From: Bacteroidota bacterium
GTDB lineage: Bacteria; Bacteroidota; Bacteroidia; Chitinophagales; Chitinophagaceae
Reading direction: 5' to 3'
Assembly: GCA_947476145.1 (NCBI GenBank)
Contig: CANJPH010000002.1
Coordinates: forward strand, 62,001 to 126,000
Length of the DNA stretch: 64,000 bases
The translations under genes and the position numbers were made by a program. The notes beneath the pieces are model-generated. The model ran no database searches, was not told where the DNA came from, and saw nothing but the letters and a program-made list of their open reading frames with translations. Positions within the stretch are counted from its first letter, which is position 1. Every line of letters begins with the position of its first letter. Of this stretch, positions 6,050 to 39,236 are shown piece after piece.

Positions 6050-7138
6050 TTAAGCTGCTGTAAATGCTTCCGAAACGCCCTTATGTAAAATCTTACCCGC
6101 TCGAATATTCAACCCTTTTGCTAAAGCAGGGCTTTCGGCACAAGCTTTTTCCCATCCTTTGTTGGCAATAGAAATGGCATATGGCAAAGTGGCTTGTGTT
6201 AAAGCGCGTGTACTAGTTTGAGGAACTGCTCCAGGCATATTGGCCACGCAATAATGAATTACATTGTCAATAGTAAATACCGGATTTTCATGTGTGGTTG
6301 GTTTACAAGTTTCAATACATCCACCCTGATCCACTGCCACATCCACGATTACCGAACCCGCCTCCATTAATTTTAAATCTGCTTTCTTTACCAAGTGCGG
6401 TGCTTTTGCGCCGTGAAGTAAAACGGCACCCACTAATAAATCCGTGGTCGGTAATTTTTCTTTAATGGCTAATAAAGTAGAATATTGTGTTACCACATTT
6501 GCTGGCATTACATCACTTAAATATCTTAATCTAGCTAAGTTAGTATCCATAATTGTAACATTGGCACCTAAACCTGCAGCCATTTTAGCTGCTTGTGTAC
6601 CTACAATACCACCACCTATAATTAATACTTCTGCTGGCTTCACACCCGGCACGCCACCTAATAATTTTCCTTTGCCACCAAATGGTTTTCCTAAATAGTA
6701 GGCGCCAACATTAATGGCCATTCTTCCTGCTACTTCGGACATAGGAACCAATAATGGTAAAGAGGCGTCTGCTAATTCTACGGTTTCATAGGCAATACAA
6801 ACTGCATGCGTTTTTATCATAGCGTCTGTTAATTCCTTAGAAGCTGCAAAATGGAAATAGGTAAATAATATTTGACCCGACTTAATATATGGGAACTCAA
6901 CGGCCAATGGTTCTTTTACTTTAATAATCATCTCTGCAATCTCATATACTTCTTTAGCAGTGTTTAAAATTTTTGCACCTACCTCTATATAGGCTTCGTC
7001 TGAGAACCCCGAACCCGCACCTGCGTTGGTTTCAATATAAACCTCATGTCCTTGTCTTACGAGTGCATCTACACCTTCGGGCGTTACTCCCACTCTGTAT
7101 TCTTGTATCTTGATTTCTTTTGGGCAACCTATTATCAT
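6050..7138 (-). CDS. ald: Alanine dehydrogenase
   Basis: MIIGCPKEIKIQEYRVGVTPEGV, KVKEPLA, NVGAYYLGKPFGGKGKLLGGVPGV, IGGGIVGTQAAKMA. Confidence 0.95.
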   Translation of the reverse strand: MIIGCPKEIKIQEYRVGVTPEGVDALVRQGHEVYIETNAGAGSGFSDEAYIEVGAKILNTAKEVYEIAEMIIKVKEPLAVEFPYIKSGQILFTYFHFAASKELTDAMIKTHAVCIAYETVELADASLPLLVPMSEVAGRMAINVGAYYLGKPFGGKGKLLGGVPGVKPAEVLIIGGGIVGTQAAKMAAGLGANVTIMDTNLARLRYLSDVMPANVVTQYSTLLAIKEKLPTTDLLVGAVLLHGAKAPHLVKKADLKLMEAGSVIVDVAVDQGGCIETCKPTTHENPVFTIDNVIHYCVANMPGAVPQTSTRALTQATLPYAISIANKGWEKACAESPALAKGLNIRAGKILHKGVSEAFTAA

Positions 7139-7307
7139 TGTATTTTATTTTATTACTGTATAAAGTTCACTAAAAAGAAAATATTCTGCATAGTTATCAT
7201 AAATACAGTAAAATATACTAATAAATACGTTATATATAGAAAATTACAGTAAATTCGGGGCTTAATTACCTGATTTACCGAAATAATTACGTTTTCAAAT
7301 TTTGAGT

Positions 7308-37125: not shown

Positions 37126-38046
37126 ATGTCTTTAGTAGTTGTCGGCTCCATGGCTTTTGATGCCATTGAAACTCCCTTTGGGAAAAGTGATAAAATAATT
37201 GGTGGTGCAGCAACCTATATTGCTTGGTGTGCATCTAATTTTACACCCGTGAAACAAATTTCGGTAGTGGGTGGTGACTTTCCTCAATCTGAGTTAGATG
37301 CCTTAACCAATCGTGGAGTAAACTTAGAAGGGGTACAAATTAAAAAAGACGAGAAGACATTTTTCTGGAGTGGTAAATATCATTTAGATATGAACACGCG
37401 TGATACTTTAGAAACACAATTAAATGTATTGGAAAATTTCCAACCAGTGGTTCCAGAAAGTTATCAGGATTGTGAAATTTTAATGTTAGGTAATTTAGTC
37501 CCTGGTGTACAAAGTAGTGTGATTAAGCAAATGAAGAATCGTCCTAAATTAATCGTGATGGATACGATGAATTTTTGGATGGAAATTATGTTAGATGATT
37601 TATTACACACTATTAGCTTAGTGGACGTGTTAATGGTAAACGATAGTGAAGCCCGTCAATTAAGTGGTGAATATAGTTTAGTGAAAGCGGCTAAAAAAAT
37701 CATGGCCATGGGTCCAAAGTATTTGATTATTAAAAAAGGAGAACATGGTGCCTTATTATTCCACGAGAACGAAGTATTCTTTGCACCTGCATTGCCTTTG
37801 GAAGAAGTATTTGATCCAACCGGTGCTGGTGATACCTTTGCAGGTGGCTTTGTAGCGCACTTAGCAAGGACCAAGAATTTCTCATTTGAAAATATGAAGT
37901 CAGCTATTATTTTAGGTAGCGCTATGGCGAGTTTCTGTGTTGAAAAATTTGGCACACAGCGTTTAACTGAAATTAATATGGAAGACATAAAAGGGCGCGT
38001 ACAATCGTTTGTTTCTTTAGTGAACTTTGATATTGAATTAGTTTAA
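37126..38046 (+). CDS. PfkB family carbohydrate/nucleoside kinase
   Basis: VVGSMAFDAIETP..., FDPTGAGDTFAGGFVAHLA PfkB signature. Confidence 0.9.
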   Translation: MSLVVVGSMAFDAIETPFGKSDKIIGGAATYIAWCASNFTPVKQISVVGGDFPQSELDALTNRGVNLEGVQIKKDEKTFFWSGKYHLDMNTRDTLETQLNVLENFQPVVPESYQDCEILMLGNLVPGVQSSVIKQMKNRPKLIVMDTMNFWMEIMLDDLLHTISLVDVLMVNDSEARQLSGEYSLVKAAKKIMAMGPKYLIIKKGEHGALLFHENEVFFAPALPLEEVFDPTGAGDTFAGGFVAHLARTKNFSFENMKSAIILGSAMASFCVEKFGTQRLTEINMEDIKGRVQSFVSLVNFDIELV

Positions 38047-38132
38047 TTTGGTGAAGTGATTCTATCCAATTAATTTTGTGTAACAATGATTAAAAATAAA
38101 CATACAAAACAAATTAAAAAACCACGCTAAGC

Positions 38133-38201
38133 GGAAGGTCTGATTGTTTGTATGCGAATAAATATACTCAGAAGCCTTCCAAGAAATTGGAAGGCTTCTT
38201 T
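38133..38201 (+). promoter_or_regulatory. Candidate antiterminator/terminator leader upstream of asd
   Basis: Terminator GAAGCCTTCC-AAGAAATT-GGAAGGCTTC-TTT (38171-38201) whose 5' arm can alternatively pair with GGAAGGTCTGA at 38133-38143. Confidence 0.6.
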
Positions 38202-38237
38202 ACTTAATAGGAGTCGTTAAAATGTAAAATATATAAA

Positions 38238-39236
38238 ATGAAAGTTGCAGTTGTTGGTGCCACAGGGCTAGTAGGTACAAAAATGTTACAAGTATTAGCA
38301 GAAAGAAATTTTCCCGTAACGGAATTAATCCCAGTAGCATCGGCACGCTCTGTAGGGAAGGAAGTGGTGTTTAAGGGGAAGGCCTATAAAGTAGTAGGCA
38401 TGGAAGAAGGCATTGCTGCTATGCCAGCGGTGGCTATTTTTTCTGCTGGTGGTAGTACTTCTACCCAGTGGGCGCCAAAGTTTGCTGAAGCAGGTATTCG
38501 TGTTATTGACAATTCTTCGGCTTGGAGAATGGATCCTACAAAAAAATTAATTGTGCCGGAAGTGAATGCAAGTGTATTAACAGCTGAGGACATGATTATT
38601 GCCAATCCAAACTGTTCTACCATACAGATGGTTGTGGCATTACAACCCTTGCATACAAAATATAAAATTAAAAGAGTGGTGGTGAGCACCTATCAAAGTG
38701 TAACAGGAACAGGTAAGCAAGCCGTGGATCAATTAATGGAAGAGCGCGCTGGTAATAAATTGGTAGCAGAACAGATGGCCTATAAATATCAGATTGATTT
38801 AAATGCGATTCCTCAAATTGATGTATTCTTAGAAAATGGATATACCAAAGAGGAAATGAAGATGGTAAAAGAAACTTGCAAAATTATGCAGGATGATACA
38901 ATCAAAGTTACAGCAACAACGGTGCGTATTCCAGTAATGGGAGGACATAGCGAAAGTGTAAATGTTGAATTTGAAAATGAGTTTGATTTGAAAGAACTCA
39001 TTGCAGCATTAGCGGCAGCTCCAGGGGTGGTCGTACAACAAGACGATGCTGCTCAGTTTTATCCAATGCCTTTATGGGCACATGAAAAAGACGAAGTATT
39101 TGTGGGACGTTTACGAAGAGACGAAACGCAAGCAAAAACTTTAAATATGTGGATTGTGAGTGACAACTTGCGCAAAGGCGCTGCAACCAATGCAGTTCAA
39201 ATTGCGGAGTACTTGGCTGCTCAAGGGATTATTTAA
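38238..39236 (+). CDS. asd: Aspartate-semialdehyde dehydrogenase
   Basis: MKVAVVGATGLVGTKMLQVLAERNFPV, NPNCSTIQMVVALQPLH catalytic Cys, VSTYQSVTGTGKQAVDQL. Confidence 0.95.
   Translation: MKVAVVGATGLVGTKMLQVLAERNFPVTELIPVASARSVGKEVVFKGKAYKVVGMEEGIAAMPAVAIFSAGGSTSTQWAPKFAEAGIRVIDNSSAWRMDPTKKLIVPEVNASVLTAEDMIIANPNCSTIQMVVALQPLHTKYKIKRVVVSTYQSVTGTGKQAVDQLMEERAGNKLVAEQMAYKYQIDLNAIPQIDVFLENGYTKEEMKMVKETCKIMQDDTIKVTATTVRIPVMGGHSESVNVEFENEFDLKELIAALAAAPGVVVQQDDAAQFYPMPLWAHEKDEVFVGRLRRDETQAKTLNMWIVSDNLRKGAATNAVQIAEYLAAQGII

Follow-up and report, generated by a model that had tools for sequence, protein, structure and literature searches.

The asd gene of a Chitinophagaceae bacterium is preceded by what appears to be a ribosome-mediated transcription attenuator, which would sense charged tRNA-Lys and tRNA-Thr; from sequence evidence, we put the probability of this reading at about 0.9. 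Aspartate-semialdehyde dehydrogenase, the product of asd, carries out a step shared by lysine, threonine, and methionine synthesis. In the window (the whole stretch of 64,000 nucleotides that was analyzed), the 190 bases between the end of a pfkB-like gene (38046) and the start of asd (38238) hold a promoter, a short ORF, competing RNA arms, and a hairpin. The ORF is conserved as a peptide, three mutually competing helices covary among relatives, the spacing of codons and arms is held within narrow limits, and the element is linked to asd. The mechanism itself is textbook; the new elements are the family, the reading of Lys and Thr codons at asd, and the almost leaderless start.

Organization of the asd Leader Region

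The region contains the following features, with the observations on which each assignment is based:

37126..38046, + strand: PfkB-family sugar kinase gene, outside the switch (ORF; a homologue lies upstream in 36 of 63 leader-bearing loci)
38047..38050, + strand: -33 promoter element TTTG (exact match, 20 nt upstream of the -7 box)
38071..38078, + strand: -7 promoter element TAATTTTG (the sole TAnnTTTG within 38040-38240)
38086..38130, + strand: leader peptide ORF MIKNKHTKQIKKPR, 14 codons and a stop, with 5 Lys, 1 Thr, and 2 Ile (conserved in 120 leaders)
38098-38121, + strand: conserved core KHTKQIKK codons within the leader ORF (core kept in 120 leaders)
38101..38116, + strand: strand 1, the His-Thr-Lys-Gln-Ile codons, predicted partner of strand 2b in a protector hairpin (fold and swapped-partner test)
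38133..38143, + strand: strand 2a, predicted antiterminator 5' arm GGAAGGTCTGA, 2 nt beyond the leader stop codon (fold and covariation)
38142..38154, + strand: strand 2b, GATTGTTTGTATG, predicted partner of strand 1 (fold and swapped-partner test)
38164..38182, + strand: strand 3, ATACTCAGAAGCCTTCCAA, predicted antiterminator 3' arm and terminator 5' arm (common to two mutually exclusive covarying helices)
38170..38201, + strand: predicted intrinsic terminator with a GAAA loop on the stem 38170-38182/38187-38199 and a U tract that is short and broken (fold and covariation)
38238..39236, + strand: asd, aspartate-semialdehyde dehydrogenase, the putative regulated gene (ORF; the same gene adjoins the leader across the family and in the best model matches outside it)

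We take the last gene to be asd from its conserved MKVAVVGATGLVG start and general knowledge. A first-pass annotation of this DNA had placed a switch at 38121-38237 and guessed at an amino acid signal. The competing arms do lie in that interval, but a start at 38121 leaves out the promoter and the greater part of the leader ORF, which would be the sensor; the guess itself gains support from the Lys- and Thr-rich ORF just upstream.

The Leader Peptide and Its Coding Constraint

The leader ORF begins 7 nt past the -7 box and reads ATG ATT AAA AAT AAA CAT ACA AAA CAA ATT AAA AAA CCA CGC TAA (38086-38130). Upstream regions were collected from 214 asd loci, drawn from the genus, from another 109 genomes in the family, and from 80 named Bacteroidota records (sets that partly overlap), and 120 of them have an ORF whose core is KHTKR[TI]KK or closely resembles it. 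These 120 leaders were chosen by the peptide, with the terminator playing no part in the selection. Relatives in the genus share nucleotide similarity from the promoter through the terminator but not beyond it. Translation shows that the peptide of the short ORF is conserved, as MMKNKHTKQIKKPL, MMNMKHTKRIKKPL, and MITLKHTKRNKKPL among others. Differences between leaders amount to 0.16, 0.26, and 0.44 at codon positions 1, 2, and 3, the third thus varying most. Only one frame is open, stops being found in 0, 91, and 59 of 96 leaders across the three frames. The core Lys positions are Lys in 94, 104, 103, and 96 of 110 leaders, with both AAA and AAG in use, and the second Thr of the core is encoded by all four of its codons, i.e., its variation is synonymous.

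Lys makes up 27% of leader residues and Thr 12.5%. Every one of the 120 leaders has at least three Lys, 116 have Thr, and Ile and Met are frequent, so the residues of the ORF match the amino acids made through asd. Which amino acid carries the greatest weight is less certain, Lys being the constant, and the Ile and Met codons may add to sensing. Against an attenuator reading, the leader also contains His and Arg/Gln codons, which do not correspond to products of asd. The His of KHTK is highly conserved and, where replaced, gives way to Tyr or Asn with the AT of the codon retained, while the Arg position is free. Conservation of this His is better explained by pairing of its codon with strand 2b than by a product of asd.

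The leader stop codon also forms the loop of a micro-hairpin at 38125-38133 (CGC-TAA-GCG in the window), and corresponding elements in relatives read CTC-TAA-GAG, CTA-TAA-TAG, and CTG-TAA-TAG. Such a structure would explain why the last leader codon alternates between Arg and Leu.

Mutually Exclusive RNA Helices

Three helices compete in the leader RNA, namely strand 1 with TTTGTATG (38147-38154, the part of strand 2b that pairs with it), GGAAGG with CCTTCC in the antiterminator, and CCTTCC with its hairpin partner in the terminator. The first-pass annotation had described the last two as a switch whose pairings exclude each other, and both fold and covary. Its terminator hairpin is indeed present, as a 13-bp stem (38170-38182/38187-38199) closed by a GAAA loop, with a predicted energy of -21.6 kcal/mol and a z score of -6.6 relative to dinucleotide shuffles; the run of T that it had described needs correction, as the U tract here is short and contains an interruption (UUCUUUACUUAAU). 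This tract is weaker than those of most relatives, which counts against the attenuator reading. By the same measure, the whole RNA (38084-38204) has a z of -6.1. A terminator was found between the leader ORF and asd in 120 of 120 cases by a permissive scan, nearly all with the arm CCTTCC.

The competing pairing of 38133-38143 with 38168-38180 had been given correctly to the base. In it, GGAAGG (38133-38138) pairs with CCTTCC (38175-38180) and TCTGA (38139-38143) with TCAGA (38168-38172), leaving AG (38173-38174) as a bulge, and the GTAT of strand 2b (38150-38153) forms an inner helix with ATAC (38164-38167). With the 3' arm of the terminator left out, the RNA is predicted to fold into the antiterminator (-17.3 kcal/mol, z -3.2).

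Comparative evidence was obtained by exchanging partner strands among 96 distinct leaders. Antiterminator arms paired with their own partners at -13.67 kcal/mol vs. -12.01 kcal/mol when swapped (z -9.3), and strand 1 with its own strand 2b at -12.97 vs. -10.25 kcal/mol (z -11.6); control strands not meant to pair gave a z of -0.6. These z values ignore the relatedness of the leaders and so overstate significance. In the alignment, the antiterminator showed 22 cells changed on both sides, compared to 8.0 +/- 2.4 in shuffles, and the terminator 94, compared to 25.0 +/- 8.8. Antiterminator pairing was possible in 90% of cells and in at most 65% once the partner was slid, and a slide of one to three columns destroyed both this pairing and that of the terminator. 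Because the 5' arm of the terminator covaries with both of its partners across the 96 distinct leaders, the competing pairings are not a product of chance. Variants of the arms include GAGAAG/CTTCTC and, in one relative (L068), GGGGCT/GGCCCC in place of GGAAGGT/GCCTTCC. RNAalifold applied to the whole alignment returned the terminator as the only common fold, which is expected, as the helices exclude each other and the length of the ORF varies.

Promoter and Transcript Start

The window contains a promoter arrangement of the Bacteroidota type, TTTG-N20-TAATTTTG (consensus in PMC7366714). Of the 120 leaders, 70 have a TAnnTTTG box no more than 40 nt ahead of their ATG, where 3.3 would be expected, mostly 6-10 nt away, and TTTG is found at a spacing of 19-21 nt in 63 of 80 leaders having the box. 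Since the -7 box ends near position -5, according to PMC9723704, the first nucleotide of the RNA would lie about 2-6 nt upstream of the leader ATG, and we infer a transcription start near 38083 +/- 2. Leaders as short as this are rare: 5' UTRs shorter than 10 nt make up 3.7% in B. thetaiotaomicron (PMC7366714), and leaderless mRNAs 5.5% of those examined in F. psychrophilum (PMC9723704). Ribosomes of Bacteroidia do not recognize Shine-Dalgarno sequences (PMC9976891). A start codon lying almost at the 5' end of the RNA may allow the first ribosome to load quickly on the leader.

Proposed Mechanism and Geometry

Transcription start, leader translation, stalling, termination, and the response to amino acids are steps that we infer, and they would be ordered as follows. 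RNA polymerase would initiate a few nucleotides before the leader ATG, and a ribosome would load on the almost leaderless RNA. If Lys or Thr were in short supply, it would stall on the KHTKQIKK codons, covering strand 1 and leaving GGAAGGTCTGA free, and the antiterminator would capture strand 3, allowing polymerase to continue into asd. If both amino acids were ample, the ribosome would reach the stop codon and cover GGAAGG, upon which strand 3 would pair with the 3' arm of the terminator and transcription would stop at ~38201. Were the leader not translated at all, strand 1 could hold strand 2b in the protector hairpin, which would also favor termination.

The spacing of codons and arms is consistent with this scheme. 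The last Lys codon mostly lies 9-14 nt from the antiterminator arm, and a ribosome with that codon in its A site, covering 15 nt on either side of the P site, ends just short of the arm; the distance from the stop codon to the arm varies from -12 to +6, so that the stop may precede or follow the arm. The 31-nt footprint of a ribosome is a value from E. coli. With 31 nt hidden for each codon position and folding treated as an equilibrium, the computed probability of the antiterminator was 0.98-1.00 whichever core codon occupied the A site, fell after the core, and averaged 0.28 at the stop codon. For the window, it was 1.0 at codons K3-K12, 0.95 at P13, 0.48 at R14, and 0.08 at the stop. Against the scheme, the window RNA at equilibrium without a ribosome favors the antiterminator (0.998), and termination in the absence of translation would therefore need kinetic trapping in the protector hairpin.

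Alternative Explanations

Mutually exclusive helices are also the layout of a riboswitch expression platform, and a riboswitch or other ligand-binding aptamer might run the switch with the ORF as an incidental feature. The first-pass annotation had recognized no known aptamer, and this agrees with the Rfam scan, in which no family reached its gathering cut-off and a permissive pass gave nothing above chance level, the best sub-threshold match scoring 26.9 vs. 99 bits. RNAalifold gave neither a junction nor a conserved aptamer core, and the part that is conserved encodes protein, with a single frame open; an aptamer is thus very improbable. Slighter still are the prospects of another possibility raised at first pass, that the hairpin is a constitutive terminator for pfkB and asd is transcribed from a promoter of its own downstream. 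A hairpin between the two genes would stop read-through from pfkB. However, the sole TAnnTTTG box of the window lies upstream of the leader, with none between terminator and asd and only one relative in 120 having a box there; no pfkB homologue was present in the upstream DNA examined at 27 of 63 leader loci; and the antiterminator arm covaries.

The strong conservation of KHTK, including a His that is not a product of asd, would also be expected if ribosome arrest came from the nascent peptide, responding to a ligand or drug, and not from hungry codons. Nevertheless, where Tyr or Asn replaces His, most bases pairing with strand 2b are retained, the Arg position varies freely, and outside the family Thr and His are lost while Lys stays. 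Conservation of this sort fits RNA pairing combined with Lys and Thr codons better, and we regard an arrest peptide as very unlikely. The end of sequence conservation at the terminator would suit a separate small RNA of ~120 nt (38083-38201) that might act on targets elsewhere and lie before asd by chance, and attenuation would in any event leave a small RNA that accumulates. Yet all 120 leaders, as well as the best model matches of other families, are linked to asd, and neither the coding constraint nor the geometry of the stop codon is expected for a plain small RNA, leaving this explanation with hardly any weight. A small RNA and an attenuator need not exclude each other, since an attenuator's leader peptide can have a function in trans, as does peTrpL of Sinorhizobium (PMC7298713).

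Distribution Across Bacteroidota

The putative attenuator leader occurs in many Chitinophagaceae genera, named records that place it in the family including Sediminibacterium roseum, Limnovirga soli, and Niastella yeongjuensis, and the element is common to dozens of Bacteroidota genera. In the family sample, it was found in 81 of 109 genomes, comprising 80 of the 89 with more similar asd and 1 of the 20 with the most diverged asd. Against the attenuator reading, 22 of 81 genomes of the genus, some of them incomplete, lack a strong match to the covariance model, so the element is dispensable. In two relatives that are close by their asd (L060 and L062), no leader ORF was found upstream of asd, though asd is kept.

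This model (R1) was built from 96 leaders, blind to the neighboring gene, and run on 247 genomes of the class. Its ten best-scoring genomes beyond the family ranged from 78 to 48 bits; two of these share one sequence, and one has a second, 52.8-bit match whose neighborhood was left out. In all ten, the match lies directly upstream of asd, with Lys-rich leaders. Genuine and background matches occur together below 48 bits, with L242 and L243 upstream of asd and L237-L241, L244, and L245 elsewhere. The leaders outside the family (L227-L236, L242, and L243) keep the Lys pair and often have Met or Cys in place of Thr, as in MKMICSKKCMKKPVR, MNISCMKRKMKKPLL, and MMIKKIKCAKKLFR, and several have GGAAAGG/CCTTTCC arms. 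The exchange of Thr for Met or Cys in other families looks like a change in which second amino acid is sensed. On balance, we favor the broader view that these leaders form a Bacteroidota attenuator family, which would sense Lys and Thr through a nearly leaderless ORF at the branch-point gene asd, and in which the secondary codons would have drifted from Thr to Met or Cys in other families while the Lys pair beside the antiterminator was kept.

No asd-type leader was seen at the flavobacterial asd loci examined, and none lies just upstream of either aspartokinase gene in the same genome. ilvD also lacks a leader, its upstream DNA overlapping the end of the preceding gene's region. Short DNA matches elsewhere (L024, L025, and L027-L029) were rejected as switches and attributed to AT-rich gene starts and chance.

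Relationship to Known Systems

The trp, his, thr, and ilv attenuators (E. coli thrL and its relatives) likewise possess a short ORF with codons for the end product, a stop codon beside strand 2, mutually exclusive protector, antiterminator, and terminator helices, and a terminator before the structural gene. The asd leader differs in that its codons are mainly Lys, with Thr, that its gene is asd, and that it has almost no 5' UTR and no Shine-Dalgarno sequence. A leader ORF at or adjoining the RNA 5' end is also a feature of peTrpL in Sinorhizobium meliloti, which belongs to another phylum and responds to tryptophan. Ribosome-mediated attenuation requires that the ribosome stay close behind RNA polymerase. 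A conserved attenuator in which codon-to-arm spacing is held within a few nucleotides makes coupling in Bacteroidota directly testable and, if the reading is correct, would be evidence that transcription and translation are closely coupled in a phylum with ribosomes that disregard Shine-Dalgarno sequences. Regulation of asd in a large environmental family would also gain a sensor and a testable model. No description of this asd leader family, or of any Lys-codon leader attenuator, was found in the open-access literature. We know of no earlier leader-peptide attenuator for lysine, and the asd leader would, if confirmed, be the first to our knowledge.

Other RNA elements resemble it in part. The Bacteroid-trp leader RNA (RF01692; PMC2864571) also precedes an amino acid biosynthesis gene in Bacteroidota but concerns tryptophan and is unrelated in sequence (22.7 bits vs. 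a threshold of 49, E 3.1), and the own genome has no match to it above the cut-off. The asd RNA motif of Lactobacillales (RF01732; PMC2864571) is linked to asd in a different phylum and had no match in the Rfam scan of the leader region. An attenuator-like sequence before asd of Streptococcus mutans (Cardineau and Curtiss, 1987, as cited in PMC2864571) is likewise linked to asd in a different phylum. Leader-peptide candidates upstream of amino acid operons of Flavobacterium psychrophilum, described in PMC9723704, share the phylum and the presumed mechanism with the asd leader. Elsewhere, lysine genes have been catalogued under the lysine (L-box) riboswitch (PMC1262725).

A Histidine Counterpart at hisG

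In the same genus, a leader with His codons and the same layout (MNLNNHIHHHHLLSIG-type) precedes hisG and starts 4 nt past TAAATTTG. Because its start lies only 4 nt beyond the TAnnTTTG box, it is probably fully leaderless. Its stop codon lies inside a GTAAGC element complementary to the terminator arm, and an antiterminator/terminator pair is located between the His leader and hisG. This leader is the His counterpart of the proposed asd attenuator. The own genome (L269) has a His-codon leader, MILTNHIHHHLLSNG, on contig C22, upstream of hisG (6737-7279, minus strand). In 13 of 13 close copies, the hisG leader begins exactly 4 nt past the box.
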